64,000 nt of DNA from Periplaneta americana (taxonomy: Eukaryota > Arthropoda > Insecta > Blattodea > Blattidae): contig NC_091119.1 of assembly GCF_040183065.1 (NCBI RefSeq), positions 66,714,892 through 66,778,891 on the forward strand, read 5' to 3'. The translations under genes and the position numbers were made by a program. Below are positions 1,738 to 36,423 of this stretch, piece by piece (position 1 is the stretch's first letter; the number at the start of each line of letters is the position of its first letter). The notes under the pieces are model-generated. The model worked only from the letters and a program-made list of their open reading frames with translations, was not told where the DNA came from and did not search any database.

Positions 1738-1878
1738 ATTCTCCTCGTCCTGGCCCTCATCGCTGTGGCTGCCGCCCAGTACCCCTACTACGCCGGATAC
1801 TACGGCACTGGATACTACGGCGCCTATGCCCACCCCTATGCCTACTCTGGTCTGGGCTACGGAATCTATGGACGTTAA
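1738..1878 (+). CDS. Tyr/Gly-rich secreted mini-peptide, copy A (exon 2; exon 1 outside window)
   Basis: Seen: a splice acceptor (TTGTTACAG) followed by 46 codons and TAA, identical in protein to exon 2 of copies B and C. The exon opens with the hydrophobic rest of a signal peptide (ILLVLALIAVAAA), probably cleaved before Gln. The mature 33 residues contain 12 Tyr and 8 Gly and end GIYGR. A donor GTGAGT follows at 1882. Family knowledge: this layout resembles insect neuropeptide-like precursor 4 / small cuticular peptides, which are secreted. Inference: a structural cuticle-type peptide or a processed peptide. The start ATG should come from a four-codon exon 1, as in the other copies, which is not in this window. 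Codons are GC-rich and C-ending within AT-rich surroundings, suggesting strong expression. Confidence 0.88.
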   Translation: MLLVLALIAVAAAQYPYYAGYYGTGYYGAYAHPYAYSGLGYGIYGR

Positions 1879-2374
1879 AGTGTGAGTTTTTAATTCTCTA
1901 TGTTCGTCGGTATCCGCGTAATCACTGTGCTCGACAGGAGAGATAAAATTACCACACATCCAGAAGATAAGATACCAAACAAAAGTTACAGTCCATTTGT
2001 CATCCATGCCAAATTCGAGTCTGATAGTGATCATTATCGCCTATCACCCTATCATCGAGTGTAATGAAATTCGCTGTCTACAGCATATGCATCTCGCAAC
2101 AGAAACAGAATTCAAATCTTATCAGACTACCAGAATTCATAAAAAAATTTCACTTAATTACATCCGAACACACTGGAAACCGTCCAATAAATTTTAACAT
2201 ACATATCCATATTAATTACGTCATACTTCCATTTTTAGACTTAAATCAAGTTTTATTGTTAGGCTATAAACACAAACACATTTGGCATTAATGTTAATTT
2301 CTATCGCGTCACACACAATAATAACTTTTTTAATAATTTTTCAAGACGGTTAAAGTTCTTTTCTTTTGTTTCAG

Positions 2375-2480
2375 TTGTCGGAGACTCTACTGACTGGTGT
2401 CGTCAAATCTGCATTAGGTTTTATTTTCATGGAATTGTATTGCATATTTCATAAAAATAAACACTTCAGTCCTGATTGAC
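2375..2480 (+). other. 3' UTR exon and polyadenylation signal of copy A
   Basis: A pyrimidine-rich acceptor (TTCTTTTGTTTCAG) ends at 2374, and AATAAA lies at 2456-2461. The intron between the donor at 1882 and this acceptor is 493 bp. The same non-coding third exon is seen in copies B and C, so the layout is conserved although the UTR sequence is not. The exact cleavage point is uncertain. Confidence 0.7.
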
Positions 2481-2535
2481 ACTTATATATGTCTATTTTA
2501 TTGTTTTGGCCACATTTTCTCTTCAATCTTATGAT

Positions 2536-3352
2536 ATGAAAAATAATCCAGTTCCTAGCATCATATCCCACGTCCCAGAAATCCGTTTTAATATTATACT
2601 CCGATTTACGTCTTGGTCTCCCTAAAGGTCTTTTTCCCTCAGGTCTTCCAACTAACACTCTACAGCCTGTATTTCTAGATTTACCCATACGTGCTACATA
2701 CCCTGCCCATCTCAAACGTCTGGATGTAATATCCCTAATTATGTTAGGTGAAGAATACAATGCGTGCAGTTTTGCATTGTGCAATTTTCTCCATTCTCCT
2801 GTAACGTCATCTCTCTTAGCCCCAAATATTTTTCTAAGCACCTTATTCTCGAATAGACTTAAACTCTATATTCACATGTAGGCTTCCACGGCCGGTGTCA
2901 ATAGGAGAAAAGTTTTTCGAGCTGTCCGTTGGTTATGTGACCAAACGTTTCGTTCACTGCTGCGGTGAACATCTTCAGTGATGTAGAGTACGGCACGCGC
3001 AGCAGAACTAACCGCATCAGTACCCTACACCACTGAAGATATTCACCGCACCAGTGAACGAAACGTTTGGTCACACAACCAACGAACCACGGCCTGATAG
3101 CCCAAAAAACGTTTCTCCTATAGTCTTTACCTCTGTTTCTTTCTCAAAGTGAGAATCAAAGTTCCATGGTCATACAGAACAACCGGTAACATAACTGTTT
3201 TATAAATATTCTAACTTTAAATATTTTTGAAAGCAGACTGGATGACAAAATCTTCTCAACCAAATAATAGCAGGCATTTCCTATATTTATTCTGCGTTTA
3301 ATTTTCTCTAGAGAGTCATTTATATTTTTTGTTACTGTTGCTCCAAGGTATT
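2536..3352 (-). mobile_element. LINE fragment (RTE-like family), split by a hairpin element
   Basis: On the minus strand the left half encodes the LRKIFGAKRDDVTGEW...LRWAGYVARMG...GRPEGKRPLGRPRRK segment of a non-LTR retrotransposon C-terminus. The right half (3129-3352) resumes the upstream part, matching the copies at 14909 and 51641. The two halves are separated by the hairpin insert at 2868-3128. The 3' terminus of the LINE is missing and several changes interrupt the frame. The RTE assignment is from recollection of arthropod CFDP2/BovB-like proteins. Confidence 0.8.
2868..3128. mobile_element. Hairpin (foldback-type) element inserted in LINE
   Basis: Two arms are inverted copies: about 2930-2987 pairs with about 3024-3080 at roughly 90% identity, around a 35-bp centre. 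The outermost parts (ATAGGAGAAA near 2901 and TTTCTCCTAT near 3113) also pair. It interrupts a LINE whose sequence resumes on the other side. No transposase is seen, so it is a non-autonomous palindromic insert. Its family is unknown, and no clear target-site duplication was found. Confidence 0.75.
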
Positions 3353-3696
3353 ACAGCTATGTTAATTGTTGCTTTAAGAACTTTGAGCTCGCAGTTCGAT
3401 GCTGTAAAAGGAGAAATTGTATAAAAGAGGGACAGAGCAAAAGAGAGAGACAGAGAGAGAGAGCATTTTTCGATAATTATTCAAAGGAAACAAACTATCT
3501 GCGTTGGATGGGCTACTGTATATGAACCACAAATTGAACTATGGATGATTTTAAGAATCGGACGTAGAATAGTAGGCTACGGCTAAAATTTGGAGGTACT
3601 GTCAGAGCTGAAGATATTCCACCTCAAATAATTACCAACTAACTAATGAATGAGTAGGCCATCTGCATAGTATATGATATGCTTTATGTAAGCATC

Positions 3697-3936
3697 AATT
3701 CGCGGGTGCTCGTGTAAAGGGGGTTAAGTCAAATTGTAAGGTATGTAAACTTCTCTCCTTTGGTACTGAACAAAACCCCTTTGTCACAAAATATGGAGCA
3801 CTGTAACTGATCATAGATGGAAGAATGACTTAACCCCTTTAACACAAGAGGAAAGTAATTGTGGATAGTTCAAATCTGTACTTATTCCAGTTTAGCCAAA
3901 TCAACTTAACCCCATTTACACGAGCACCCGCGAATT
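3697..3936. mobile_element. 240-bp MITE with ~33-bp terminal inverted repeats
   Basis: AATTCGCGGGTGCTCGTGTA begins the left end, and its reverse complement closes the right end; near-identity continues through the GGGGTTAAGT block. There is no coding capacity. The family is not assigned because no unambiguous target-site duplication is seen. Confidence 0.85.
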
Positions 3937-4410
3937 ATTCTCCCCCTTCTTCAAGTACTATACTTTATTGTGCATAGATTTTATTATTTTTTAGGCGAAT
4001 TCGTTTTATTCATATGACAGTAACTTCAAATTATGCGTTATTTTATTACATTTTATACCAAGTTTGAATGAAAATAAACCTTGCTTGTCACATGATTATT
4101 AGTCGAATTCAATAAACGAATTGTTTATTTTATTGAGATTGTTAAAATAAATTTCACCTTTCCAATAATTTCTGTTTAGAAGAGGAGATAGCTTATTTTT
4201 TCAGAAGTATGTGTTACAACATTATTACTAAGTAGAGAAAAAAATCAACAATATAAAATTACAAAATGATTAAGCGAACTACTTTACATCTAAAAGTAGC
4301 TGGCAGTTGATTTTCACTCTTGTAAGATTGGTTGGAGATTATAACGTTATTGCTATAAAGTTTTGATATTATACTTCACAATTTCTTACGAGATTCAGAA
4401 ATGGAATACC

Positions 4411-4642
4411 CGTCGTCGATTTGCAAAAGGGGACACATCCAAAATAACAAATTGTTGGGAAATCGCAAAAAATTCATAACAGACTTAAAATATTAAAATA
4501 TTCATAGATCCTGAACGTATGTATCCATAGTTATCCAATCATAAAACAAATATATGAACATTTTAATTTGTTAACTTATAGTTTTTGCGGTTTCCCAACA
4601 CTTTGCTATTTTGGACATGTCCCTTTTTGCAAATCGATGACA
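4411..4642. mobile_element. Hairpin MITE with ~60-bp inverted arms
   Basis: The left arm (CGATTTGCAAAAGGGGACAC... to about 4475) is the inverted partner of the right arm (about 4578-4640, GACATGTCCCTTTTTGCAAA) at roughly 85% identity. The centre is AT-rich and non-coding. Confidence 0.8.
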
Positions 4643-5404
4643 GATATCAAGTATTATGTTTTATGCTTTGTACTTTAATTTTCTGATGCTTTATTGTGAT
4701 CTTAAATATTACATATTCCTGACTATGAAATTAAACGTTACATATCGTGGGCTTATTGCAAAAAGTCCGTAAGTACATAGGAAAGCAATGAGGCTCACCA
4801 CCTTTTTCCAGTAAGCATACGATGTTTCAAATCATAAAGCCGTATACCGGAAATTGTCACTACGTTTAATAATCGTGAAATAGCTAATAATCATTGAAAA
4901 TTAAAACTATACCCAATGAGAAGCAAGAATTCTGTGATTCGTGCACTCTTAAATCAACTTTCATAACATTGATTAACGCTTCCAAGACTCTCAGACTATC
5001 CACGCTGCTCCTTGGTCAATGCCAACCTTACTTTCGAAGATCTCGTTAAAACTCCAACCACAAAACCCCGCTTCTCTCTCTGGTCTAACTTCACCACGCA
5101 AACACTTATCGTATCAAATAATGATCTGTGCACTATCACCGTTATTGTCCTGAATGGAACATAGTGAAGTTGAAAATTTATGATTTTATAGTTAGTTAAT
5201 TTAAAGATATTGCACGTTAGATGGTTTTTACACTTCGCATTAGGCCTACAGGAATTATAAAATTCAAGTACTGAGATGCAGCAAAACTCGATTTCCAGAT
5301 TTTCCAACAAATACACGTTACTTGCAATCCCGAAACCGCACAATTAGTTTCCTGCATTCCGTCTATCTTTCGCAGCTCATCGTTCACTTGTGACTGCAGG
5401 AAGA

Positions 5405-5790
5405 AGAAGAGAGTCCATTTTTCAGCAAGATGGTGCACCATCTCACTTCCACCATCATGTGCGTGAATACCTTAGCGAGGCTCTCCCTCAATGTTGGATT
5501 GGCCATTACACTATCGCAGACCAAACATTGGTGAAGAGGCCTCCGTACTCACCTGACTTAAACCCGTATACTTTTTTTCTGTGGGGTATGTAAAAACAAT
5601 GTTTACGTTCCTCCTTTGGTCAATAATCTACAGGAGCAACGGCGTTGCATCACAGCTGCAGTGCAGGCAATAGATTGGGATACTCTGCGTAGTGTGGAAG
5701 GAATTTAAATGTTGCCTAGATATGTGTTGTGTGACCAGAGGTTCACATATCGAGAATTTTTAAGGTATCAAACAAACTTTGGAAAGATTA
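5405..5790 (+). pseudogene. Mariner-type transposase C-terminal fragment
   Basis: Reads IFQQDGAPSHFHHHVREYL, then PPYSPDLN and FFLWG, then further matches such as VPPLVNNLQEQRR in shifted frame and CCVTRGSHIE. These are the second and third catalytic-Asp neighbourhoods and the tail of a DDE/D transposase of the Tc1/mariner superfamily. The N-terminal DNA-binding half and first catalytic Asp are absent, and the frame is broken after FFLWG. A MITE begins immediately downstream. Confidence 0.8.
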
Positions 5791-5808
5791 CCTGTCCATT
5801 GTCACTTA

Positions 5809-6645
5809 TTAGAGAGTTTTCGCACCCTAAACGGTTAACGATATCTCGACGTCATTGATGAAAGAGCAAATCAGAGGCATTCATCTCACGTTATTTCAGT
5901 ATCGGATCCGCTTTCTCTGGACGGTTAATGTGCAAGTAAACAGAGTTTACAGTAGGCCTAATTCGGTATTAAAACATAGCATCTCCTTTGATATTTACTA
6001 CTCTGGACGATATTCATGAATTTAGAACAGCTCAATATGGATAAATTATTCAGACCGAAGTATGAGAAGGCTGAGAAAAAAATTTTTCGTCGATATTTCA
6101 AAAGACAAAAGGCTGAGTCGTGAGTACTCCGTCAAGCGAAAACGCTCCTTTGTATAACTCGCCGTAACTCGGAAACTAGTAAAAATGTTGAGTAGCGACC
6201 AATAGTAAAAGTAATTTCCATTCTTTCTCAACATTTCTCTCGCTTTGGCTCCCAATTTAATGTGAAAAATAAAAAAGTTTTCCGCTTTCTAAATTTTGAT
6301 GGTGTAAATGTTTATTCTGAATAGTTCACAACGAAGTTAGTATTTTTTCTCACTTTGCAGAAAATATTTTCATTTATATTTTTGTCATGCATTCCTTAGA
6401 CATCGAGCTATCAATTACAAAAATACAGCGCTATTGATTAACGATCATAAGAGCTACGACATGATGTTTAATACAGCGGGAAATATCGTATAATAGAGTC
6501 TTGCGTTAAAGAAATACGTGCACCGATTCTTAACGATTATTTCCGAAGTTTATTACGAACATAAACATGTTACCAAATACGTCACTACTTACGTCAACAT
6601 AGCATTAACCATTTAGCGGACCAGTAGGGTGCGAAAACTCTCTAA
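5809..6645. mobile_element. Non-autonomous TIR element with TA duplication
   Basis: TTAGAGAGTTTTCGCACCCT opens the left end and is perfectly inverted at the right end; the inverted match including the flanking TA spans 5807-5829 and 6625-6647. TA on both sides fits Tc1/mariner-type insertion. The interior has no transposase, but about 370 bp of it (6130-6500) recurs at 62490-62850. Confidence 0.8.
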
Positions 6646-6649
6646 TATG

Positions 6650-8029
6650 TGGTTTCAGCAATAATAGTCATATAGATAAAGTATTGTGAAATTGGAGCAA
6701 TAATTTTGGCACATGATGCACTATAAATTGCAGTGTCATTCGCAACATTTTATGGGCATTCGTTCTCATATGCACCGCGTGCAGTCAGTGCTCTTATTCG
6801 TGTACAAAACATGTCTCTGTGTTGAGTTGTTAGTGGTACTCTTTATTCCAAATACATTATATCGTTCACGTGAACTCTTATACACCACGTATAAGCTATA
6901 CCACTGGTTACCTAGGCGACGCTGTCTAAACTATCAGATGTCAATAATACGCAGACACAGGATATAGTTCTCTCTTTTCTATGTTTTTCATCCCTTTCCC
7001 TTAACCATCCCCAACGGCACTGTTTTAGAGCACGGGTTAAAAGTGTTCTGCGTGACAGAATATTACAGTCCGTACAGTACACAATTTCAGTGAAAATAAC
7101 CTTCTCATATTAACATTTTGTAATATAACAGCTGAGTATAAATTTCTGGTAAAAATTGTCTATAATTTTAAAAAGTGTAGAAGAGGTAGTAAACGGGATA
7201 CATGAAAAGAAACAGGCAATTCAAAGCTCTTTTGAAACAAGTTAAAGGGGCTGAAGCTGATGGAGTTCCTATGAATACAAAATTAAAGTTGCTTAAAATA
7301 ATGCTAGTGAAATATAGAGCATATCCATATTTAACACACTTAAATTAGTTTTCTAATATACGTTGAACACAAAACTACGGAATATTAAGCACATATCGCA
7401 AGCTCTTACAGCAGCTATGCTTATTTTTTACTCCTCCCGATATGTTATCACAAGATTATAGAGAAAATGTGATGATTTTTTAACATTAAAATAGTGTTTT
7501 TATTAATTTTAAGCGAAACATGTAACATATACATTAACAGTATAAAACCACGAATCTGCTCACAAGTCCTTTTCGACGTGGTTTCGAAGCTGTTAAGGAG
7601 AATTGGTTTGTTTTGGAATGTATGTGCAGTAATGGAAATCAATTTGGTTAAGTGGTTTTGAAAAGACAAACAAAAATATACAGTAAAATATACTCATGAC
7701 ATTTTGACAATTTATGTGAATTTTTGCTTGTTTAAGTTGCTGCATCAAAGAAGTAGAATCGGTTGAGAAAATAAACATGTCCTTAACTATAACTTTTGAG
7801 AAAACAACAGAAAACTGTCTGCAGCTAACAAATATTGAAGACATGTTCTTATTTTTTAGAGTTTATTTTTAATATTAATTGTAGTATTTTTAAATATTTT
7901 AAATAACAGTCTATTTTTATTTAAGAGCGCCAGGGTGCCCTAAATATCGTGAACTTCTGTTGGTTCTCAAATACTCAGTTTACAATGCCTTTTGACATTT
8001 TCTGACAGCCAAATATTAATTTACAGTCA
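6650..8029. other. No recognised gene; AT-rich interval
   Basis: I see no known coding region or repeat here. One 48-codon ORF (7202-7348, beginning MKRNRQFKALLKQVKGAEAD) reads like protein rather than noise, but I do not recognise it and it has no visible splice or promoter context. Confidence 0.4.
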
Positions 8030-8960
8030 CTGATAAATGTATCGCACTGCAAGATACCACTCCCCTCTATCTCTCCATAGGTCTTCTCCTAATTGTCTTC
8101 TTTCCATAGCTTCCAGAATGCCCTTTTTCCATGTTCTCATAGGCTTTCTCTTTTTCTTCTTCTTGATGAGGTCCAATCATATGCCAACCTTCAACCTTGA
8201 TAATCTTTCCGTATTCATTCGCATCATATGCACATACCATATTAGTTGTTTTGTGAAAATATCCTCTACAATATCATTCTTAACTTGCATTTCCTCTCTG
8301 ATTATATCGTTTCTAATTTCTTGAAATGCCTGCTGATCGTCTCCAATAATTCATTTCTAAGGTCAAAAATTTATTTCTGAATGCGTTTTGCAATTGTCAA
8401 GTTTCTGCAAGGTTATACTTCTCACAATTGATTTATAAATTTTATGTTTAGTTTCAATTCTGATTTTATTACCCCATAATACTTGATTAAGAGTGGATAT
8501 TGTACATTTTCCTTTCTTCAAAAGTTCTTTCATTTCTACATGGTTTCTTCCATCATCTGTGATTGTGACACCTAAATATTTGTATTTATTACTATATTTA
8601 TTAACACCTTTATTTTCAAGTATCAGATTTTATTTCTTTTCCCCAATAACCATATAATGAGATTTTGCAAAATTAAATTTTAATCCAGATTTTTCATATT
8701 CTTCAATAGTTTTCTGCTCATGTATTCAATATCATCATAGTCTTCTGCTAGTATAATTTGATCATCAGCAAATTGTAGAGTATATATATTTTTGTCACCA
8801 ACCAAAACACCCATATGCCTACATTTCTTCTTCCATCCTTTCAGAGCTTCTTCCAGGTAAATTTTAAACAGTGTTGGAGACAGGCAGTATCCCTGGCGTA
8901 ATCCTTTAGTAATACGAAATTCAGTTCATACCTTATTTTTTATTTTTATTCTTGCCAAAG
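8030..8960 (-). mobile_element. Decayed LINE reverse transcriptase (second family)
   Basis: Minus-strand translation, crossing several frameshifts, shows reverse-transcriptase motif B (GLRQGYCLSPTLF), motif C (LQFADDQIILAEDYDD), YKYLGVTITDDGR, and a C-terminal WYGHMMRM-like region with MRTWKKGILEA. The order fits the 3' half of a non-LTR retrotransposon. It is 5'-truncated around 8960 and has at least three frame breaks or stops. The plus-strand reading of the same stretch is only a shadow. Confidence 0.8.
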
Positions 8961-10059: not shown

Positions 10060-13000
10060 CAATATATCTGCCTATCTAATGACCCACATATCTAACCCTT
10101 CTTCCTACCCGAATAATTGACTGGCTGCACTGAACAACTTACTGTCTATTGCCTACCCATCTTTCAGTATAACTGTCTACACTTAGTATATCTGCCTACT
10201 CATCTATCAGTATAACTGTCTACCCATCTATTAGTATAAACTGCCTATACATCTATTAATATATCTGTATCTAACTGCCTACCCATCTCTCAGTATATCT
10301 GTCTACTCATCTATCAGTATAACTGCCTACCCCTCTATTAGTATATCTGCCTACTTATCTATTAGTATAACTGTCTACCCATCTATTAGTGTAACTGCCT
10401 ATACATCTATCAATATATATCTGTCTATAACTGCCTACCCATCTCTCAGTTTATCTGTCTACCCATCTTTCAGTATAACTGTCTACACATTTGTTAGTAT
10501 ATCTGCCTACTCATCTATCAGTATAACTGCCTACCCCTCTATTAGTATATCTGCCTACTCATCTATCAGTATAACTGCCTACCCCTCTATTAGTATATCT
10601 GCCTACTCATCTATCAGTATAACTGCCTACCCCTCTATTAGTATATCTGCCTACTCATCTATCAGTATAACTGCCTACCCCTCTATTAGTATATCTGTCT
10701 ACTCATCTATCAGTATAACTGCCTACCCCTCTATTAGTATATCTGTCTACTCATCTATCAGTATAACTGCCTACCCCTCTATTAGTATATCTGCCTACTC
10801 ATCTATCAGTATAACTGCCTACCCCTCTATTAGTATATCTGTCTACTCATCTATCAGTATAACTGCCTACCCCTCTATTAGTATATCTGCCTACTCATCT
10901 ATCAGTATAACTGCCTACCCCTCTATTAGTATATCTGCCTACTCATCTATCAGTATAACTGCCTACCCCTCTATTAGTATATCTGCCTACTCATCTATCA
11001 GTATAACTGCCTACCCCTCTATTAGTATATCTGCCTACTCATCTATCAGTATAACTGCCTACCCCTCTATTAGTATATCTGTCTACTCATCTATCAGTAT
11101 AACTGCCTACCCCTCTATTAGTATATCTGCCTACTCATCTATCAGTATAACTGCCTACCCCTCTATTAGTATATCTGTCTACTCATCTATCAGTATAACT
11201 GCCTACCCCTATATTAGTATATCTGTCTACTCATCTATTAGTATAACTGCCTACCCCTCTATTAGTATATCTGTCTACTCATCTATCAGTATAACTGCCT
11301 ACCCCTCTATTAGTATATCTGTCTACTCATCTATCAGTATAACTGCCTACCCCTCTATTAGTATATCTGTCTACTCATCTATCAGTATAACTGCCTACTC
11401 CTCTATTAGTATATCTGCCTACTCATCTATCAGTATAACTGCCTACCCCTCTATTAGTATATCTGCCTACTCATCTATTAGTATAACTGTCTACCCATCT
11501 ATTAGTGTAAATGCCTATACATCTATCAATATATATCTGTCTGTAACTGCCTACCCATCTCTCAGTTTATCTGTCTACCCATCTTTCAGTATAACTGTCT
11601 ACACATTTGTTAGTATATCTGCCTACTCATCTATCAGTATAACTGGCTACCCTCTATTAGTATATCTGTCTACTCATGTATCAGTGTAACTGCCTACCCC
11701 TCTATTAGTATATCTGTCTACTCATGTATCAGTGTAACTGCCTACCCCTCTATTAGTATATCTGCCCATTCATCTATCAGTATAACTGTCTACCCATCTA
11801 TTAGTGTAACTGCCTATACATCTATTAATATATCTGTCTATAACTGCCTACCCATCTCTCAGTATATCTGCCTCCCCATTCCTCAGTATATCTGTCAACC
11901 CATTTCTCAGTGTATGTGTCTTCCCATCTTTCAGTATAACTGTCTACACATTTGTTAGTATATCTGCCTACTCATATATCAATATAACTGCCTGCCCATC
12001 TCTTAGTATATCTGCCTCCCCATCCCTCAGTATATCTGTCAACCCATCTCTCAGTATATCTGTCTTCCCTCTTTCAGTATAACTGTCTACACATTTTTAG
12101 TATATCTGCCTACTCATCAATCAGTATAATTGCCTACCCATCTCTTAGTATATCTGCTTCCCCATCTCTCAGTATATCAGCCAACCCATCTATCATTATA
12201 TCTGTCTAACCATCTTTCAGTATAACTGTCTACACATTGGTTAGGATATGTGCCTACTCATATATCAATATAACTGCCTACCCACCTCTTAGTATATCTG
12301 CCTCCCCATCTCTCAGTATATCTGTCTTCCCATCTTTCAGTATAACTGTCTACACATTGGTTAGGATATGTGCCTACTCATATATCAATATAACTGCCTA
12401 CCCACCTCTTAGTATATCTGCCTCCCCATCTCTCAGTATATCTGTCTTCCCATCTTTCAGTATAACTGTCTACACATTTGTTAGGATATCTGCCTACTCA
12501 TATATCAATATAACTGCCTACCCACCTCTTAGTATATCTGCCTCCCCATCTCTCAGTATATCTGTCTTCCCATCTTTCAGTATAACTGTCTACACATTTG
12601 TTAGGATATCTGCCTACTCATATATCAATATAACTGCCTACCCATCTCTTAGTATATCTGCCTCACCATCTCTCAGTATATCTGTCAACCTTTCTCTCAG
12701 TATATCTGTCTACCCATCTTTCAGTATAACTGTCTACACATTTGTTAGTATATCTATCATTATAACTCCTACACATTTGCAAGTATATATCTTTATCCAA
12801 TCAGTATAACTCCCTACAAATCTATTAGTATACCTCCTACTTATCCATCAGTATAACAGTCTTCCTATTTATCAGTATAACTGCCTGTCCACCTACCAGT
12901 AAATTTGTGTACCCATCTTTCAGTATAACTCTATATCCATCTATAAGTATATCTGTCTACCCATTTAGCAGTATAACTGCCTACCCACCTATCAATATAT

Positions 13001-13370
13001 CTACGTACTCATCTATCAGTGTAACTGCTAACTCATCAATTAGCCTATCTGCCTACCCATCTATCATTGTATTGCTTAGCAATATATCTGCTGACCTATC
13101 CATCGGTATACCTACCCACCTATCAATATATTTGCCTACCCTATATAGGTATATCTACCCATCTCGATCTATCAGTATATCTACCTACCGACCTATCGAT
13201 ATATCTGCATATCTATGTATGAATATATGTGCCTATCATCTGTCAGCATGCGTACCTATCTGTCAATATACCTGTCCACCCATTTATCAATATATCTGCC
13301 TAACTATTTACCAATATACATACCTTTCCATCTGTTAGTATATTTTCCTATCTATCTACCTACCTCTTTA
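10060..13370. repeat. 3.3-kb minisatellite, 24-bp unit with 48- and 120-bp higher orders
   Basis: The basic unit is about CTGCCTACCCATCTATCAGT plus ATAT (24 bp). From about 10500 to 11460 two unit types alternate, giving an almost perfect 48-bp period. At 12241, 12361, 12481 and 12601 blocks of exactly 120 bp (five units) repeat. Outer units (before 10300 and after 12750) are the most diverged, as expected when new copies arise in the middle. Because 24 is divisible by three, long open frames arise by chance; these are not genes. Confidence 0.97.
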
Positions 13371-18832: not shown

Positions 18833-18849
18833 TTGACCAAGGCCAAGGT
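18833..18849 (+). promoter_or_regulatory. Shared upstream block of copy B, FTZ-F1-like site
   Basis: TTGACCAAGGCCAAGGT is identical to the block upstream of copy C and lies 112 bp before the TATA box. It contains CCAAGGCCA (18837-18845), which fits the published FTZ-F1 consensus YCAAGGYCR. The neighbouring promoter sequence is otherwise different between B and C, so conservation of this block is notable. Function is inferred. Confidence 0.65.
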
Positions 18850-18944: not shown

Positions 18945-18981
18945 TATATAAAGCCACAGCAGCTCATGTAACAGCATTAGT
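18945..18981 (+). promoter_or_regulatory. TATA box and initiator of copy B
   Basis: TATATAAAG starts at 18945. An initiator-like TTAGTC has its A at 18979, 34 bp downstream, matching the geometry in copy C. The inferred 5' UTR is about 33 bases before the ATG at 19012. Confidence 0.75.
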
Positions 18982-19011: not shown

Positions 19012-21123
19012 ATGTACAAGCTGGTAAGTTACCACTTATACCTGCACTTTCAGAGTTTGTACGTTCAATTCCATAATTCTCGCTTGGAGAAATTTCTCAC
19101 CCACGTTGTATTTCAACGCTGAATAATTAACAACTTTCAGTATTTTATTTAACGACTTTTTCAAGTGCGAAGGTTATTTACTCGGAATTCAAAAATTCAA
19201 CGTGGATGAGAAATGCTCACAAATTTTTTCTGGAATCCTCTATCAGAATCAGAATTTTTGCAAGTGCTGTACATATATCACAGCTTTATTTCCCTTCTTG
19301 AGGAAGAAATGCTGAGGAGTTTGCCCTTTTAAATCCCTTTCGTACGATACGGTCTTAGCTACAAAGCCTGGAACCAAACGGATAGCATTGTAACGCCTAG
19401 TTCTCGTTTATCAAGAGCAAGTAAGTTCAATATAACTGTAGTGAATTCTAATCTTATTACTACTCTTCTCTGGGACTACCATATTGCTTCCCTGCCAGAG
19501 TTGAGCTCGAGCGTGAGTTCAATTCCCACTTGGGCTGATCTGGTTTTTCCGAGGTTTTCTCAAACCGGAAGGCGAATGTCAGGTAATCTATGGTGAATCC
19601 TCGGCCTCATGTCGTCAATCTCAAGGACGACGCTAAATAACTTAGAAGTTGATATAGCGTCGTTTAATAACGAAGTAAAATTAAAAAAAAAACGCTACCA
19701 TATTTTTTTTAATTTCACGTATTGTTTTTTTTCATTAAAGGTTTCAGCCGTCTACCGTTGTTGAATAACGGTTAGCACGTCAGACCGTGAAACAAGTAGG
19801 CCCGAGTTCAAATTCTGGTTGGTTTTTTTCCGGGGTTTTCCATCAATCAATTGAAGCAGAATTGCTGGGTAACTTTCGCCGTTAGACATCGGACTCATTT
19901 CGCCATCAGTAATTCACATATCATCATCATCATCCATAACCCGGGTTAAGTTCATGGTGCGGCGTGCTGTACTTGTAATTACAAGAGCGCACCCGTTCGG
20001 CTACTCAATCATTCACAGAATAGAAGTGCAAGCCTTCGGGTCCCTCCTTCGTTCAAGAGAAAAAAAAAAAAGAGTTTCAGCCAAGCGAGTTGCAAATAAA
20101 ATTATAGATGCAGTAGAAGTATAAAATACAAATATTTGAAATAACTGTAGTGTTCTCGCTTGTTGCAAAAGTGGTAGCGTTTCTACCTGCAAAAATAACA
20201 GGCACAGCTTCAACTCCTAACAGGGAAGTGATTAATCTTTCTCCCACACGGATTAAGTAAGGTCGCCTTGTCTTCTACAGTATATGTTACGTGTTGTTCT
20301 AAAATAAAAGTCCGCACTATGGTGACCACATGAATTGGAACTTGAATTCTAGATGAGACCTGACATTGGTTCATAAATTTCATAGGAATAAGGATGAACG
20401 GAGTCGAAGGGCTCAGTCTATGAAATTGAAAGCTGGTAATGATAGTGATAATACATGGTGAGAAAGTTGTTCTACATTGAATAACCCACTCGAAAGTCTG
20501 TTGAGGATTAATATGATGATAAAACAATCAAAATTGAAATGAAGTGGCATGTAAAGTCGAAATATTCAGGAAAAAAATTAATCACATCAGTTCTTTCCGT
20601 ATGAAAGCACATATTGAGAAGTCATCAGACAACCGAAGCAGGGCTGAATGGTTTAGGGTATCTTAACATTCAATGACACTTCCATTTACGGTCTTCAAAA
20701 GTGTGAACGACTACATTAATTTTAGTTTCTCTAGTGTAAACTATGCCAACTGCAGAAAGGAAATATTCTGTTAATTAAGAAATTTGAGAGAAAATTAGAA
20801 AAATTAATACTGAAAGTGAGATTTTATTCCCTAGTGACTAATCATAATTTCAAAAAATATTTCCAGAACAATAGACATTTCCTCCGATCTTAAAGAACGA
20901 AATATCCTGTCGATGTTTTACGTACCGTATTTGTAAATTTGGCGACATATACCTCAACAGCATTGTTATACTTTGTTTGCAGATTCTCCTCGTCCTGGCC
21001 CTCATCGCCGTGGCTGCCGCCCAGTACCCCTACTATGCCGGATACTACGGCACTGGATACTACGGCGCCTACGCCCACCCTTATGCCTACTCTGGTCTGG
21101 GCTATGGAATCTATGGACGTTAA
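19012..21123 (+). CDS. Tyr/Gly-rich secreted mini-peptide, copy B (spliced)
   Basis: Exons: 19012-19023 (ATG TAC AAG CTG, then GTAAGT) and 20983-21123 (after TTTGTTTGCAG), joined in phase 0; a donor at 21134 leads to a 3' UTR exon. The predicted 50-residue protein begins MYKL, has a hydrophobic signal segment to about residue 17, and a mature part beginning QYPYYAGYYG and ending GIYGR with 12 Tyr among 33 residues. Secretion follows from the signal peptide; similarity to neuropeptide-like precursor 4 or small cuticle peptides is by composition only. The 1.96-kb intron holds three SINEs. Exon 2 differs from copy A at five bases, all synonymous. The TATA/initiator pair and FTZ-F1-like block support a live gene. 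Confidence 0.92.
19138..19335 (-). mobile_element. SINE-like repeat within intron 1 of copy B
   Basis: TATTTTATTTAACGAC at the left is the reverse of the GTCGTTAAATAA 3' end shared by several SINEs here. The interior, including AGCTTTATTTCC near the right end, matches 51338-51540. An internal inverted repeat around GAGAAATT...CAACGTGG lies across its left edge. Limits are approximate. Confidence 0.55.
19485..19690 (+). mobile_element. SINE copy within intron 1 of copy B
   Basis: GTGAGTTCAATTCCCACTTG acts as a degenerate box B. It is followed by GGTTTTTCCGAGGTTTTCTC, AGGCGAATGTCAGGTAATCT and an ACGCTAAATAACTT...GATATAGCGTCGTTTAATAAC 3' end plus A-rich tail. The copy at 54790-55045 matches throughout. 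Confidence 0.8.
19741..20082 (+). mobile_element. tRNA-derived SINE with 9-bp duplication in intron 1 of copy B
   Basis: GTTTCAGCC occurs at 19741-19749 and 20074-20082, flanking the insert. The head contains AATAACGGTTAGCACGTC (box A region) and GAGTTCAAATTCTGG (box B). The body matches the SINE at 33021-33379 (TTGAAGCAGAATTGCTGGGT, CGGCTACTCAATCATTCACA). It ends in a poly(A) run. Confidence 0.9.
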
Positions 21124-21526
21124 ATTATCATACGTAAGTAATAAAAAAACTGATTCTTACTTGTAACATTTGTACATCAATAGACCTATATTATTGTTTT
21201 TGTTATTAGTTATTGTATTAGTTTAAGTACTTTTGTATATCTAAAAACTACAACGAATATAGAATACACAAGTTCTCGAACTTATTGCATTAAACGTTAG
21301 GCGATACTGTTTATAGGACATAAATTTTCTTATGACATTGCAAGTATTCATTAAAGAGATGTTCATATTGGTAGGATGTCAAATATGATATCCAATTATT
21401 GCACTGTTGGCCTACTCTTTCGTAATATATTAGGATTGAGTGGATTTTTGTTCTACGTTCCACATATTTCTTACTCTACCACTATCTACGGGTACGTAAA
21501 CCGTATGAATGTAGAACTACTACCAC

Positions 21527-22002: not shown

Positions 22003-22115
22003 GATGTACAGCCTGTCCCCAGTTCCTAACGACATGACTTCGATAAATTATTGGCCTATGTGTTTTTTTTAAATTGGCATGTATATTCCGAAATAAATAT
22101 TCCTGACATGTTTCA
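22003..22115 (+). other. 3' UTR exon and polyadenylation signal of copy B
   Basis: The acceptor TTTTTGTTTCAG ends at 22002 and AATAAA lies at 22092-22097. The intron from the donor at 21134 is 869 bp, swollen by trinucleotide repeats. The cleavage site is assumed 10-25 bases after the signal. Confidence 0.65.
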
Positions 22116-24425: not shown

Positions 24426-24445
24426 CGCCCTCCACTAGTCTGCGT

Positions 24446-26593: not shown

Positions 26594-26835
26594 GGTTATT
26601 TTACGACGCTTTATCAACAACTTAGGTTATTTAGCGTCTGAATGACATGAAGGTGATAATGCCGATGAAATGAGTCCGGGGTCCAGCACCGAAAGTAACC
26701 CAGCATTTGCTCATATTGGGTTGAGGGGAAAACCCGGAAAATCCTCAACCAGGTAACTTGCCCCGATCGGGAATCGAATCCGGGCCACCGGGTTTCGCGG
26801 CCAGACGCGCTAACCGTTACTCCACAGGTGTGGAC
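26594..26835 (-). mobile_element. tRNA-derived SINE, minus orientation
   Basis: The minus strand has CACCTGTGGAGTAACGGTTA, box B GGATTCGATTCCCG, GGTTTTCCCCTCAACC, and the GACGCTAAATAACCTAAG...GCGTCGTAAAATAACCT 3' end that is also seen at 591-711. Nearly full length. Confidence 0.9.
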
Positions 26836-28420: not shown

Positions 28421-28592
28421 AGTAACAAAATAGGTACATAGTGTAATTGGGAGTATTTGTGTAGACGTGTACTGCAAATAATGTGTTATTGTAATAATAT
28501 GTTAATGGTGGCACCGGATACAGAAATGTGAGGTACACCATTACATGTAAAGAAGTGCTGTGACGAAATATATCATATCATATATCATATCA

Positions 28593-29747: not shown

Positions 29748-29995
29748 ATATCATATCACCGGCAAGCTGACAGCAATCAATAACTTAGGAATTACACATC
29801 TTATCTTAAGCTTGCTCATGGATATAATTATTATTATAATCAAGATGCAAGACAAGCATCTCAGTGCAACCATGCGTTGAGTTGTATCGAATGAGGGAAA
29901 TAATTTTATGTATGGTATTCTCTATCTAGAATTCTATTAAGATTTCTGATGAGGTGGGGGCCATCAGAAATCTTAATTCGCACCCTGCCTAAATC

Positions 29996-31028
29996 CGTTC
30001 CCTGGCACTTACGTCCATGCGCCACGCACACTATTTTCGTTCCAGATTACGATGTACGATTTAGGTTATCCTTCACGGTTACAAGAATGGGATTAATCCT
30101 CTGATCAAAAAACCTACCAATTACCATATGACACCTTATTTATGGAAATCTGACGGGAAATTGCATGTTTAACAACGCCCACTCTTATCCTACTTGGAAT
30201 TCCAATCGGGGAAGCAATAATTTCAGTATTAATGCTGAATATATACTTGCAGTTGCGGACCTGCCTGGAACGAACAAGAGATCACGATCACTTCACGCAA
30301 ACACGAGCAGTTAGGCATGTCTGGCAGCTATCACGTGTCACACGCATTTCACCACGAAGAGCGCGGTGCAGTCATTTCGACAGTGTCACGAGAAGTTTGC
30401 AGCGCTTCCGAGGTGAACATTATCTCAAGCACCCGAGGGCAATATATTTCATTGTAATTTATCTGCCGTGGTAATAAGTCAAGTCGCTGCGTTAACACGA
30501 CTCCACACACCTGCGCATGCCTCACTGACCTTGTGCTCTGCACCGGGACCCACCTTTCCTGCAGTTTAACAAATTCACGGACCCCTTTAAAGGTATGAAG
30601 GGGCGGTCCCCTCCTTAATGCCACACCTGTTGATACTCCTTAGTGGTCTGTAATCTGTAACACTAATCTTGAAACACGAGCAATAGAAGCCAGGATTGTT
30701 AATCATACTAAAGCATATTACTTCCCACAAAAAAATATTTTAGGTTAAAATAAATAAAACAACAAAGACATTTATACACAACATCAATGAAATCAATATT
30801 CCACAATGAAAATAATTGTCTATGAGTAGGGGGACGCTAATTAATCAAATATAGTGACGGAATGTATAGTTTCTACGAGGACCTGAGTAATATTTCGAAT
30901 AGGAGACATACATAAGCAGGGTATCTCTAAAGTGTAGGAGCAGGAAGAATCCTTGAAAGTAGCCCTGAGCGTAATGTTATATGATCCATAGTAAGAACAT
31001 TAATGGTCATGTATTTTTATGGGATACT
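29996..31028. other. No recognised gene
   Basis: Two modest ORFs on opposite strands near 30232-30624 overlap each other and resemble nothing I know. No terminal repeats were noticed. Confidence 0.35.
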
Positions 31029-31030
31029 TA

Positions 31031-32357
31031 CACAGGTGCAGCATAGGAATCGGGCGATTTTAAAATGGAAATAACTCAGTAGAACTCTAACTCTATTAGA
31101 ACAAATCTATTACTGCCAAAAAAAACTGGCTATGTACGCCATTTTATTGAAATACATTTAGATTCTCTCGAAAATTATGTTCTTCATATGATGTCCGTCT
31201 CTCTCTATGCACTCTTCCAGTCTTTCCCTGAAGTTGCGTGTCGCTCTTTCCAACACTTCGCCATCAATGTTGGCGATTTCCTGAGCAATGGCAATCTTCA
31301 CGTCATCAGTTGTTTGGGGCCTGTTTACGTACATTTTTAACTTCAGGTAACCCCACAGAAAGTAGTCGCAGACGGTAAGGTCAGGTGAGGTGAGCGGGAA
31401 GGCCAGGGAATGTCGCCACGCCGAGAAGTGATGTGCCCTGGAAACATGCGGCGCAGAACTTTCATTGAATTTTCTGCCCTATGAGCCGTGGCTCCATCTT
31501 GCTCAAACCATACCATTTGTCTATCATTCCCACGTAGACGACTACGCAGTTCTGGTTGAAGAAATGTCCTCAGGATTTCGACGTAGCGTTCACTATTCAC
31601 TGTCACAGTGCTCTCGTTCCCCTAAAAAAAATACGGGCCTATGACGCAGTATCTAGACCCAGCACACCAAACTGTAACTTTCGTACAGTGAAGCGGATGC
31701 TTGTGTAGTTAGGATTTTCGGGCCCCCAGTGTCTAAAGTTCTGCGTATTAATTTAAATGGAAATGTGCCTCATCACTCATGAACATGACTTCGTCAGCAA
31801 AATTTCCACCATTCTCTCGGCGAATGTCCTGAGTTGGACATGTCTCCCTCATTCAATTGCTGAACTATCATAAGTTTATATGGATGAAACTTAAGATCTG
31901 AATGCAATATTCGGCGCACAGAAACTTCTGAAAGTCGCAGTGCTATAACCTGTCGTCTAGCTGATCGATGTGGAGTCCTCGTAACAACCACTCTCACTCG
32001 CTCAATGTTATCTGGCGTTCGTACACTTGGAACGTGTCCTGGTGGTTTTTTCTTACAAGCTGATGCTGATAATCGAAAGTTTTGTACCCATCTCAATATA
32101 TTATTGCGAGCAGGAACGGCTCCGTGGCGGCCAACATTAAATTGGAGACGAAAGACATGCTGGGTTTTCACAACTGAATCATCATTCTTGAAAAATATCT
32201 CGATAACGAAAGCACGATGCTCCGAGCTCCATACTTCCATGATTACACAAAATGGCATCAAAAATGATAACAAACGACGGTCGATCGATATCCATAACCC
32301 CTCATATTGCTCAGTAAACGGCCTTCTAAAACCATCCGATTTCTTTGCCGCACCTTG
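31031..32357 (-). mobile_element. Nearly complete mariner-type element (DD41D-like), decayed
   Basis: Ends are inverted (about AGGTGCAGCATAGGAATCGG at the left, its diverged mirror at the right) and TA flanks both sides (31029-31030, 32358-32359). The transposase reads on the minus strand from about 32253 to 31158. Length 1327 bp fits the superfamily. Frame breaks separate at least three segments, so it is inactive. Confidence 0.92.
31158..32253 (-). pseudogene. Mariner-type transposase
   Basis: The N-terminal part holds an HTH-like region (EHRAFVIEIFFKNDDSVVKT) and RTPDNIERVR. The catalytic region shows FMSDEAHFH (first Asp), WFEQDGATAH (second Asp) and a SPDLTVCDYFLWGY-type third site in a shifted frame. 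If read across, 41 residues separate the second and third Asp, which suggests DD41D rather than the usual DD34D. The C-terminus ends near ERDGHHMKNIIFERI. Several frameshifts and in-frame stops interrupt it. Confidence 0.85.
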
Positions 32358-32526
32358 TATTAAAGATTTTAAAAATGCCAGGATGTAGGAGAAGAGCTTA
32401 ACATCAAGGAATAGACGTTTTTGTTAGTGATGGGACAACATCGAAGAGGAATGCAAGGTAATGCCCTTAGGAGGCATATATTACATAGTGTTTCTTTGAT
32501 GATACCGGTATATGTGATACGATATA

Positions 32527-33418
32527 TTTATTCACAGTTTTCTGCCCAAGGGCAGTTCTTTCATTGCAAACCCAATCTTTCCTCTTTCTGCCTTCCTCTC
32601 AGTCTCCGCATACGATCTATAATATTTCTTGAAGTCGTCTATCATGTGATATTTTCTCCTGCCCGAACTTTACTCCGGTCCACCATTCCTTCTACTGCAT
32701 CCTTCAGTAGGCAGTTTCTTCTCAGTCAGTGACCCAACTGATTCCTTTTTCTCTTTCTGGTCAGTTTTAGCATCATTCTTTCTTCACCAACTCTTTCCAG
32801 CACAGCTTCATTTCTTATTCTGTCTGTGCATTTTACACGCTCTTTTTTCCTCCATATTCACATTTCAAATGCTTCTATCGCTTCTCTTCACTTTGTCGTA
32901 ATATTCATGTTTCTGTCCCATACAATGTCACACTCCACACAAAGCACTTCGCTAGTCCCTTTCTTAATTCTTTTGCCATAGGTTGGCACAAGATATTCCT
33001 TTTTCTATTAAAAGCTTTCTTTGTCCACCGCTATGGAGTAATGGTTAACACGTCCGGCCATGAAACGAGCAGGCCTGGGTTCAAATACTGGTTGGAACAA
33101 ATTCCCTCGTTGGGGTTTTTCCGGGGTTTCCCTCAACTAATTGAAGCAGAATTGCTGGGTAACTTTCAGGTTGGACTTCGGAATCATTTCGCCATCATTA
33201 ATTCACATATTATCAGCCATACCACAGCCTGGGTTAAGTTCACGGTGAGACGTGCTGTACAAGAGCGCGGCCGCTCGGCTACTCAATCATTCACAGAACA
33301 GGAATGATAAGCACAATAAGCCTCAGGCTGCAGGGCAAGTCTTCGAGTCCCTCCACCGTACAAGAGTAAAAAAAAAAAAAAAGCTTTCTCCTTTTGACTT
33401 CCTGGCAACATCTCTTGT
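32527..33418 (-). mobile_element. LINE 3' fragment (family of 17770), split by a SINE
   Basis: Colinear with 17770-18345: TTCTGCCCAAGGGCAG, CTTCAGTAGGCAG, CATTCTTTCTTCAC and CCTTTTGACTTCCTGGCA blocks all recur in order. A SINE at 33021-33379 interrupts it, and the LINE resumes at 33390. It is more decayed than its sister copy. Confidence 0.8.
33011..33389 (+). mobile_element. tRNA-derived SINE with 10-bp duplication inside a LINE
   Basis: AAAGCTTTCT flanks the insert (33011-33020 and 33380-33389). The head has CGCTATGGAGTAATGGTTAA (box A region) and TGGGTTCAAATACTGG (box B). The body matches 19750-20073, and a poly(A) run ends it. The host LINE resumes immediately after. Confidence 0.93.
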
Positions 33419-33423
33419 TAAGC

Positions 33424-33426
<3 letters not shown>

Positions 33427-33482
<56 letters not shown>
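33427..33482. repeat. (TAA)n microsatellite
   Basis: About 18 perfect repeats; further AAT and TTTA repeats follow to 33530. Confidence 0.97.
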
Positions 33483-33485
<3 letters not shown>

Positions 33486-33519
33486 ATTGGTAATAAAAAT
33501 AATAATAATAATTTATTTA

Positions 33520-33660
33520 TTTATTTATTTATATTAGCAGAGTTAAGGCCATAGGGCCTTCTCTTACTCTCTACCAGGTCACAAAGTATACAAGCAGTGA
33601 AAATGTAACAAAAACTTAAAGAACAGACTACTAACATGTTACAAAAAAACATGAAAATAA
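33520..33660 (-). mobile_element. Probable LINE 3' UTR remnant with hairpin
   Basis: AAGGCCATAGGGCCTTCTCT next to CTCTACCAGGTC recurs near 57365-57412 (CCTGGTAGAGATAAGGCCAT...). On the minus strand it is followed by TAAA-type repeats, as at LINE 3' ends. No coding part is seen. Confidence 0.45.
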
Positions 33661-34202
33661 TACCATAATAGAAAAAAAAAGAAAGTAAAATACATTGGAA
33701 TACAGTAAAAGCAACTCATTTAGTGCAAATAGTTAATATGGAAAACGTAAGGAAGAATATAAGAAAATTGAATTTAATAAAATGATAATGAAAAAGAAAA
33801 GAAATACGAAAATTAAATAAAATTCACAATAAAAAAGGTTTGATAATAAATTCATCTGTTATTAAGGGAACAAAAAAAGGGGAAAGGAAGGAAAAGAAAT
33901 ATAGGTCTATATATTTAAAAAAATATATCGAGAGAAAAGGCTTATAACTAATAGGAATCTGAATTGAAAATGTGCAATTTTAGTTTATTTTTGAAACTAA
34001 ACAATGTCCGACAGTCTCTGACATGTTATAGTCCGTCTCAGTTATTTTCAGCTCTCCACTTGCTCTACTGCCTCGTTTACAATAACATGTTTACCTTCTT
34101 TATTTTTCTTCCGATAATAATGGGCTTGTTTGTATTTATCTGCATCCCATACTGCTAACACCTGTCATTTAGTTCCAGTAGCATATTTAGTAGCTTATCT
34201 CT

Positions 34203-34264
34203 ACATACATACATACATACATACATACATACATACATACATACATACATACATACATACATAC
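34203..34264. repeat. (CATA)n microsatellite
   Basis: About 15 perfect repeats, 200 bp upstream of the promoter block of copy C. Confidence 0.97.
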
Positions 34265-34464
34265 AAATAATAAAAGATGATTATATGATTTCTGTAGTTA
34301 TAATACCAAGTCATTCACGTTGCTATTTTCACGTGTCTTGTTACGCGTTATCAGGGAGCAGCACGGATTAACAAGCGGGCGTTTTCCGCGATATTCTAAC
34401 CGATTCGCTTCACATTACCAATCTAAATTAAGTTTATTGCGAAAGAGCGACTAGTCCAGTTGTT

Positions 34465-34481
34465 TTGACCAAGGCCAAGGT
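34465..34481 (+). promoter_or_regulatory. Shared upstream block of copy C, FTZ-F1-like site
   Basis: TTGACCAAGGCCAAGGT, identical over 17 bp to the block at 18833, 101 bp before the TATA box. CCAAGGCCA at 34469-34477 fits YCAAGGYCR. Confidence 0.65.
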
Positions 34482-34565
34482 GCCGCCGAGTCGAGCGACC
34501 AACACGACTTGCAGCTTGTATTTCTTTTTGTATGTGCGTCACCAACCATGAGGCTCGGACTCCAG

Positions 34566-34601
34566 TATATAAACCCCCTGGACGGACTGCCCAGCATCAG
34601 T
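34566..34601 (+). promoter_or_regulatory. TATA box and arthropod initiator of copy C
   Basis: TATATAAA at 34566-34573 and TCAGTC with its A at 34599, 33 bp downstream. TCAGT is the typical arthropod initiator. The inferred 5' UTR is about 39 bases. Confidence 0.82.
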
Positions 34602-34637
34602 CTTCTGCAGTAAAGACAGAGCAAACAAACCACAACC

Positions 34638-36423
34638 ATGTACCAGCTGGTAAGTTTCTGCAATTCTTAAAAAAAATACACTTAATTTTTTTTAGTTTTG
34701 AAAACTAATGTAATGCTATAAGTAAATATTAGCAGTTTAATTTACTTACTAAAATGAATCGAGAGAAATTAATACTTAAATTCTCTTTACGAACTTCAAC
34801 TCTAATACTAAAGGTTAGATGGTTTGAAATCAGTAGTGGCATTATGCGAGGTGTAGTGATCCTGCGGTCAAATACTGAGAATTTCAACTTGTGCTACATA
34901 TTTAATATCCTATGAAATATGAAAAGCCTGAGATCCTATAAGGGCAAAGGACTTCTACAGCAGGTAGAGTGAGCTGAAGGTCTACTACACTTGGGGAGCC
35001 AGTGCAAGAGAACTTGCACTATACACTTACATACTAAACATATAAACAAACTATACAGACTAAACACGAAAATCTATACAGACTAAACACATAAATTAAT
35101 ATCCTATAGCAATTTCTTAAAATGTAAGGCATTTGGGATTATTTTCCTTATTCTCTGAAACATAGAAACATATTTCAAATTGTTTATTTATATAAGAAAA
35201 AATTCTAAGCCTGTATGAAATATTAACAAAGTAATGTAATTATTTCATAACATTTTGAAGCTACGAAATTCAATATACTTCACTATGTTTATGTTCTATG
35301 ACCAGTTATTGTTTATAAAACAAGCTTTTTATTTACTGAATTTGTTATTTTTCGAAAATTTAAATTTCTATTAAATGGACGACATGTTCATTATTTCGTA
35401 TTATAATTTATACTTACCTAGTATTTGTTTATTGAATCTGACGCTTTTTTATACTAACAAATTTTTTTTTACGTTATGTTTTGATTTTTCGGAGTTTAAA
35501 TTTTCACCAAAAATTCCCACCTTTATATTTTTATACAATTTACATTTACAATTTTTAAGTTGTATACAAGTTACTATGTCTGTGTATACATATATCTGTG
35601 CATTTCTGCGAAAGTTTAATACACAAAGATAGTCAAATTACAAATACTTAACTTTGAATTCATGTGTACTAATTTTTAAACATATCTATTATTAATAGGT
35701 CTAAATATATTACATTCAATTTCAATTGCTTCGAGATATAAGTGAGAAGTGATTTATTTCAATAGTATCCTGGAGTGGGATTTACGGATTGAAGTCAATG
35801 ATGTAACATTTTGCTTCTTTCTTTTTTACTACTAAATTTGCTTTACAGTCTCTGTAAAAAGTTACTTTCAATACACGAAACTTGGAATTTTTCTAGTAAT
35901 TCAATCGTTGACTAAATTTGCCATTATAAAAACTCACTTTCCATAATAAAATACAAATTAACTGAACATTCCAAATATGTACAAAATTCAGTTGTTCAGT
36001 ACTAGCTTTAAAAACTAAATATTTGGATAGTCAATAAATATAATTGTAACGCAATTCTTTATAATCTTAGAAGTAACTTTATGTCTACATGAATAACGTA
36101 AGGGATGGTAAGGGATGTAATTATTTTAGTGTTAAGTTCAAGATTTTATTATTTTCTTAATTTGTAAATCCGAAAAACATAAATAAAGCTCTATCATAAG
36201 AGATGAAATCTTTGTACAACAAACGTTAATGCTTCAGACATAGCGTGAGCAAGTAACTTGAAAACTGTCCTTTCTGCTGCAGATTCTCCTCGTCCTGGCC
36301 CTCATCGCCGTGGCCGCCGCCCAGTACCCCTACTATGCCGGATACTACGGCACTGGATACTACGGCGCCTATGCCCACCCCTATGCCTACTCCGGTCTTG
36401 GCTACGGAATCTATGGTCGTTAA
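34638..36423 (+). CDS. Tyr/Gly-rich secreted mini-peptide, copy C (spliced)
   Basis: Exons: 34638-34649 (ATG TAC CAG CTG, then GTAAGT) and 36283-36423 (after CTTTCTGCTGCAG), joined in phase 0. The 50-residue product differs from copy B only at residue 3 (Gln for Lys). Signal segment to about residue 17; mature part QYPYYAGYYG to GIYGR. Exon 2 differs from A at six and from B at seven bases, all synonymous. The intron (1.63 kb) is AT-rich and free of recognised transposons, unlike copy B. TATA, initiator and the shared upstream block sit in the expected order. Donor GTGAGT at 36427 leads to a 3' UTR exon. Function is inferred as a secreted cuticular or peptide-signalling product. Confidence 0.94.

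Follow-up and report, generated by a model that had tools for sequence, protein, structure and literature searches.

Apparent concerted evolution of a very short coding exon in a tandem array of small peptide genes of Periplaneta americana

We analyzed a 64,000-nucleotide stretch of the cockroach Periplaneta americana genome (contig C3:66714892-66778891, "the window"), which carries three tandem genes, A, B, and C, for a small secreted peptide whose second exon is nearly identical in all three copies. All exons were predicted from genomic DNA and follow a three-exon plan, in which exon 1 would encode four residues, exon 2 the remainder of the signal peptide plus the mature peptide, and exon 3 would be non-coding. 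Copy A is cut by the left edge of the window, and its exon 1 (MYQL) starts at C3:66714844, 48 bases before window base 1. Exon 2 of copy A (1738-1881, plus strand) consists of a coding sequence at 1738-1878 (46 codons and TAA, encoding ILLVLALIAVAAAQYPYYAGYYGTGYYGAYAHPYAYSGLGYGIYGR) and the bases AGT, followed by the donor GTGAGT. Its predicted non-coding exon 3 (2375-2461, plus strand) extends from an acceptor to AATAAA at 2456 and was assigned by homology to exon 3 of a further copy, c3, and by an nhmmer profile.

Copies B and C are complete in the window, with every feature on the plus strand. Copy B has a candidate FTZ-F1/NR5A-type site (CCAAGGCCA, fitting YCAAGGYCR) at 18837-18845, a TATA box at 18945-18950, 67 bases upstream of the ATG, and an exon 1 coding part (ATGTACAAGCTG, MYKL) at 19012-19023 with the donor GTAAG. 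Its exon 2 lies at 20983-21133, where the coding sequence with stop codon (20983-21123) is followed by 10 further bases and the donor GTAAGT, and its predicted non-coding exon 3, the weakest such assignment of six, lies at 22003-22097 with AATAAA at 22092. Copy C likewise has a candidate FTZ-F1-type site (CCAAGGCCA, again fitting YCAAGGYCR) at 34469-34477, a TATA box at 34566-34571, 72 bases upstream of the ATG, an initiator TCAGT at 34597, and an exon 1 coding part (ATGTACCAGCTG, MYQL) at 34638-34649 with the donor GTAAG. Exon 2 of copy C spans 36283-36426 (coding sequence with stop codon 36283-36423, 3 further bases, then the donor GTGAGT), and a predicted non-coding exon 3, related to that of a copy named c1, spans 36615-36708 with AATAAA at 36703.

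The predicted product is a 50-residue Tyr/Gly-rich secreted peptide with a signal-peptide-like N-terminus; with the cleavage site placed by eye, the mature peptide has 33 residues (12 Tyr, 8 Gly, no Cys) and a mass of 3747 Da. Exon 2 of A, B, and C specifies the same 46 residues. Nine codons vary (13, 15, 22, 34, 37, 41, 43, 45, and 49), with 5 base differences between A and B, 6 between A and C, and 7 between B and C, and every difference is synonymous. Our recount agrees with an earlier reading of this DNA made from the letters alone (the sequence-only reading). The probability that nine of nine changes are synonymous under neutrality is ≈6e-6 to 2e-5, and the observation is real and well above chance.

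The comparison of paralogues that the sequence-only reading had called for was run across the cockroach's own genome (3,231,669,367 bases in 91 contigs), with at least 7 matches to the DNA query and at least 10 to the protein query. It showed that A, B, and C belong to a row of six near-identical tandem genes on C3, in the order c1, c2, c3, A, B, C, all on the plus strand, which are spaced 11-19 kb apart and share the exon plan with an intron 1 of 115 to 2628 bases. A diverged seventh gene of this first type, c7 (expectation value [E] 2.8e-4), lies ≈78 kb past C, measured between first exons. Beyond c7, the genes c8 (exon 2 at C3:66869086-66869238, minus strand) and c9 (exon 2 at C3:66890699-66890851, plus strand) form an inverted pair ≈21 kb apart that encodes a second peptide type. 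These two are weak matches by sequence alone (E 0.18 and 0.28), and we relate them to the array because both have a MYKL exon 1 preceded by a TATA box. A query with the c9 exon returned at least 7 matches, all previously known. A candidate distant relative on contig C9 (C9:146276215-146276328) is possible, judging from its similarity to copy A (E 1.6) and to c9 (E 0.016) and from a donor-like GTGAGT shortly after its stop codon.

Among the six near-identical copies, exon 2 carries two amino-acid changes, Ala35Ser in c1 and Gly42Ala in c1 and c2. Hence the earlier statement that Lys/Gln at residue 3 is the sole coding change applies within the window, where B has Lys and C has Gln, but exon 1 of A, with Gln, lies outside the window, and the statement does not extend to the six. 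The peptide is constrained, yet not strictly invariant.

The genes have a uniform architecture. The first coding exon is 12 bases long in all seven first-type genes, including c7, and also in c8 and c9, and it interrupts the signal peptide in phase 0. A TATA box lies at -67 to -72 from the ATG in 7 of 7 first-type genes, with an initiator-like motif ≈30 bases after it in each (TCAGT itself in five genes, ACAGT in c3, and GCATT in B). Thus, both a short phase-0 first coding exon and a TATA box with an initiator ≈30 bases on, as in cuticle-type genes, are present. The 75 bases upstream of the ATG are recognizably related (z > 2.5) in 20 of the 21 pairs formed by the seven genes. A donor-like sequence occurs 3 to 10 bases after the stop codon in all seven, although c3 needs a GC donor and c1 has a weak GTCAGT. 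In c8 and c9, the bases read after the stop codon contain no donor-like sequence, and AATAAA follows soon after the stop instead.

An exon 3 could be assigned in each of the six copies, with an acceptor-to-AATAAA length of 79-89 bases. Homology is clear for A, c2, and c3, in that A matches c3 at 72% over 145 bases and c2 at 66% over 138 bases. A profile built from exon 3 of A, c2, and c3 gave weak matches behind B (E 0.083), C (E 3.6), and c1 (E 4.9), each adjoining an acceptor and AATAAA. Exon 3 of C and that of c1 align with a score of 41.5, compared to a best of 17.5 in 200 shuffles, and the assignment in B is marginal (26.1 against a shuffle best of 23.1 with C, and 25.4 against 24.3 with c1, 200 shuffles each).

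Exon 2 stands apart from its surroundings. For the 15 pairings among the six copies, mean raw divergence is 0.14 at exon-2 synonymous sites, 0.38 in the 75 bases upstream of the ATG (core promoter and 5' untranslated region), and 0.45 in exon 3, with promoters ranging from 0.17 to 0.48 and exon 3 from 0.29 to 0.54. The pair c3 and A illustrates this difference, with 2 of 141 exon-2 bases differing, versus 26-29% of positions in exon 3 and 27-28% in the proximal promoter. In three flank regions beside the exons, A, B, and C yielded 9 comparisons, none above z 2.5, and the six copies yielded 45 (61-69 bases per region), of which 1 exceeded z 3, with a maximum of 3.6. By contrast, simulated homologous flanks at a divergence of 0.13 gave a median z of 21, and the observed range was reached mostly at a divergence of ≈0.7 or more. 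Introns as similar as exon 2, which the sequence-only reading had named as the sign of a recent duplication, are therefore absent, and flank pairs behave as unrelated except for the one at z 3.6. Its description of introns, untranslated regions, and promoters as no longer alignable holds for the flanks beside the exons, but promoters and 3' exons are partly alignable. Judging from the unalignable intron sequence at the exon edges and the strongly diverged promoters and 3' exons, the copies are old, and they carry a segment much less diverged than their own flanks, as expected of concerted evolution.

These divergences reject a recent duplication, in which young copies would owe their peptide identity to strong purifying selection and their different flanks to insertions. 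Insertions are indeed common here, in that 6 of 8 longer shared flank blocks occur at three places or more within the surrounding 194 kb; but the sequence touching the exon edges is unalignable as well, and the alignable promoters and exon 3 have already diverged to the extent given above, so that we regard youth of the copies as highly improbable. The shared blocks were likewise not taken as homology of the flanks: six are regarded as dispersed repeats, one, shared by A and c3, is exon 3, and one, shared by C and c7 at two places, was set aside. By eye, this last block has inverted ends. A dispersed repeat with 13 matches in the 194 kb occupies 589-709 in intron 1 of copy A, and the first introns of c1, B, and c7 contain related stretches.

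Kinship differs between parts of the genes. Promoters and exon 3 both group A with c2 and c3, and c1 with C, and the promoter tree places c7 beside c1 (support 87/88 to 95/93). Exon 2 hardly mirrors these groups: Mantel correlations were 0.38 between exon 2 and promoters (p 0.09) and 0.25 between exon 2 and exon 3 (p 0.18), compared to 0.55 between promoters and exon 3 (p 0.05).

In old copies of which only the peptide is kept, synonymous codons would be expected to be redrawn at each position. Instead, the copies differ at a mean of 4.5 synonymous codons versus 17.2 after codons were shuffled within amino acids, and 0 of 5000 shuffles was as low. Because the codons agree position by position, codon bias at saturation is rejected, and this shuffle test rules out codon bias alone as the cause. 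Third-position guanine plus cytosine (GC) content of exon 2 is 0.67-0.72 in the six copies and 0.68-0.81 in c7, c8, c9, and the C9 relative, in a surrounding 194 kb of 35.5% GC; since it is equally high in the relatives, it is uninformative on conversion. RNA folding of the coding sequences was ordinary (z -0.8 to 0.3), giving no signal of secondary structure as a source of synonymous constraint. The mean ratio of nonsynonymous to synonymous divergence (dN/dS) in exon 2 of the six copies, a measure that conversion can bias, is ≈0.07, which suggests that purifying selection also acts on the peptide. The sequence-only reading had offered a choice between strong selection for the precise peptide sequence and exon-limited gene conversion. 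As a sole cause, the first fails, since synonymous sites are conserved beside unalignable flanks, position-specific codons are kept, and two amino-acid changes occur in the array. The second is the better supported of the two, but unproven.

The most probable reading, in our judgment, is that cuticle-type peptide genes form an old tandem array in which ectopic gene conversion, together with purifying selection, homogenizes exon 2. Sister genes would repeatedly overwrite one another's exon 2 through ectopic conversion, mismatched flanks would halt the conversion tracts near the exon edges, and purifying selection would remove most amino-acid changes. The inverted pair bears on this mechanism. 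Exon 2 of c8 and c9 differs at 4 of 153 bases (two synonymous changes and two amino-acid changes), while the promoters and nearly all of intron 1 are unalignable; similarity spills ≈38 bases into the intron and more than 130 bases past the stop codon, into a related 3' untranslated region. As c8 and c9 lie on opposite strands, unequal crossing-over does not easily homogenize such copies.

Other tests of conversion, which was judged on the paralogues of this one genome, were weak or mixed, although exon 2 is far less diverged than its flanks. Ten of 21 informative site pairs in exon 2 are incompatible with one tree; in simulations without conversion, conflicts averaged 0.03 to 4.0 over 20 settings, and in any setting at most 2% of divergence-matched draws reached ten. 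In addition, promoter plus exon 1 rejects the grouping of c1 with c2 (0.010). Comparing c7 with C, all 18 amino-acid-identical codons match within codons 9-27, versus 8 of 14 elsewhere (Fisher p 0.003, for a region picked after looking), and the same comparison with the other five copies gave p 0.004 to 0.13. Several results count against conversion or are neutral, however. Constraint on codons 9-27 would also produce the uneven match of c7, and free toggling of a few sites gives equal conflict (7 of 15 pairs; random mean 8.3), so that incompatible sites do not separate conversion from toggling or site-specific constraint and were discarded as proof. Approximately unbiased (AU) tests on exon 2 reject none of the groupings {c2, c3, A} (p-AU 0.135), {c1, C} (0.191), {c1, B, C} (0.055), and {c1, c7} (0.252), and whether promoters reject a clade of the six copies varies with the length used (p 0.006 for 75 bases, 0.139 for 150 bases). 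Finally, similarity among the six breaks off sharply at the splice junctions, which conversion does not require.

That stop at the exon edges is what would be seen if most exon-2 synonymous sites were individually fixed, for example by splicing enhancers, translation, or RNA-binding sites, and about a dozen toggled freely, with no conversion at all. The site conflict is consistent with such toggling, c7 and all six copies agree best within codons 9-27, and variable codons are concentrated in 34-50 (9 of 17) compared to 5-33 (3 of 29; Fisher p 0.004, for a boundary picked after looking). Nevertheless, this position-specific constraint would require about two thirds of the synonymous sites to be nearly invariant, c7 breaks several codons that are fixed in the six, and nothing special appears in the RNA folding, and we consider it unlikely. 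There is a slimmer chance that the unit exchanged is the exon as such: a 141-base island, its similarity ending at both splice junctions, would be passed between genes tens of kb apart, across strands in c8 and c9, and possibly from a template of reverse-transcribed mRNA instead of a sister gene. Two observations speak against such a cDNA route: exon 3 of the same predicted transcripts is not homogenized, and the similarity of c8 and c9 runs past the splice acceptor.

Conversion aside, a cuticle role is the likeliest function, but unproven. The architecture and promoter sites suggest that the peptide is probably a structural cuticle component, an abundant product of the epidermis around the moult; an FTZ-F1-type factor of the ecdysone cascade would drive expression, and extra copies would raise output. 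Five of the 7 promoters carry, between -161 and -175, an exact match to YCAAGGYCR, which we take to be an FTZ-F1/NR5A-type consensus, compared to 0.45% of 2000 control windows. This evidence is tempered on several counts: c2 and c3 have only one-mismatch sites, as do 13.7% of control windows; the c8 and c9 promoters lack an exact FTZ-F1-type site and have one-mismatch sites only; and paralogous promoters are not independent observations. The consensus in print, as excerpted, is the narrower YCAAGGTCR (PMC3766229), which is exact only in A and c7. The same excerpt describes honeybee cuticle genes as not enriched for FTZ-F1 sites and states that FTZ-F1 regulates silkworm and fly cuticle genes (PMC3766229).

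Pfam scans of two family members showed only sub-threshold DUF matches and no R&R (chitin-binding) domain, so these are not CPR proteins. Pfam and NCBIfam scans and a PDB sequence search gave no family above threshold, and no paper carrying matching peptide strings was found in the open-licence literature searched. A function other than in the cuticle, either as a neuropeptide-like signalling precursor of the NPLP4 kind, whose C-terminal Gly-Arg may undergo amidation, or as an antimicrobial peptide rich in Gly and Tyr, is a minority option that we would not dismiss, and it concerns function, not homogenization. The peptides end in IYGR in the six copies, YYGR in c7, and YIYG in c8 and c9, and the ...IYGR terminus would suit such a precursor. 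Clustered genes for small secreted peptides also recall NPLP4 of Bombyx mori, which excerpts describe as detected in brain and not tissue-specific (PMC3032748), and an excerpt of PMC5054526 cites flesh-fly NPLP4 as diapause-specific. A two-sequence BLASTP comparison with Drosophila NPLP4, using an approximate fly sequence, gave E 0.001 for c9 and 0.014 for the six-type peptide, over 13-20 low-complexity residues. However, silkworm NPLP4 proteins, as excerpted, have a C-terminal YYX, which the array peptides do not, and NPLP4 membership is not established. Moreover, the architecture and FTZ-F1-type sites match moult-regulated cuticle genes. Several of the silkworm genes, among them NPLP4B, E, and F, are themselves described as high in epidermis at the start of the moult (PMC3032748, in part), so the two functions are not mutually exclusive.

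The window also holds features other than the array. Between A and B lies a 3-kb minisatellite (10150-13318) of ≈24-base units with a 48-base higher-order period, which leaves a 484-codon frame open at 10235-11689. A reverse transcriptase domain match (Pfam RVT_1) lies at 52092-52997 on the minus strand; two minus-strand stretches, 51681-52088 and 2452-2865, have no Pfam match, are alike by eye, and have the appearance of remnants of a similar element. A match to the helix-turn-helix domain DUF4817 (31797-32423, minus strand, E 1.2e-10) is probably a mobile-element fragment. Rfam and tRNA scans of the 64-kb window gave no matches.

Taken together, the array most likely reflects ordinary concerted evolution of old cuticle-type genes, notable for a very short homogenized unit. 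It offers, in an insect genome of 3.2 Gb, a compact natural example of apparent concerted evolution in which the shared homology is very short (141 bases). The diverged relatives and the inverted pair from this same region serve as internal comparisons, and the array could be used in measuring the minimum homology for ectopic conversion in insects. The array also contributes a peptide family from a cockroach, with moult-type promoter sites. Concerted evolution of mosquito Hsp82 is reportedly limited to the open reading frame, judging by the title of a 1996 report by Benedict; homogenization would be bounded by the coding region there as here, but in heat-shock genes and not in small peptide exons. 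In Anopheles gambiae, excerpts describe three tandem cuticle genes, Agcp2a-c, that are at least 98% identical in coding sequence with different untranslated regions and introns, and Anopheles CPR genes with a median and modal first-exon coding length of 12 bases, a TATA box, and a TCAGT-type initiator (PMC2259329). The cockroach array resembles these clusters, as excerpted, in coding identity, 12-base first exon, and TATA/initiator arrangement, but they encode R&R proteins, whereas its 50-residue peptides lack that domain. Interlocus conversion is described, in the portion seen, for the Drosophila 67F and 84A cuticular arrays, in 84A mainly over part of the coding sequence, and is linked in some to repetitive coding sequence (PMC2793513). 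These are again tandem cuticle genes with homogenized coding sequence, although in Drosophila, according to the same portion, concerted evolution was shown by orthologues of many species, whereas the cockroach array is known from one genome. By analogy, the array would appear to work as these Anopheles and Drosophila cuticle genes do, in which the pattern is already known.

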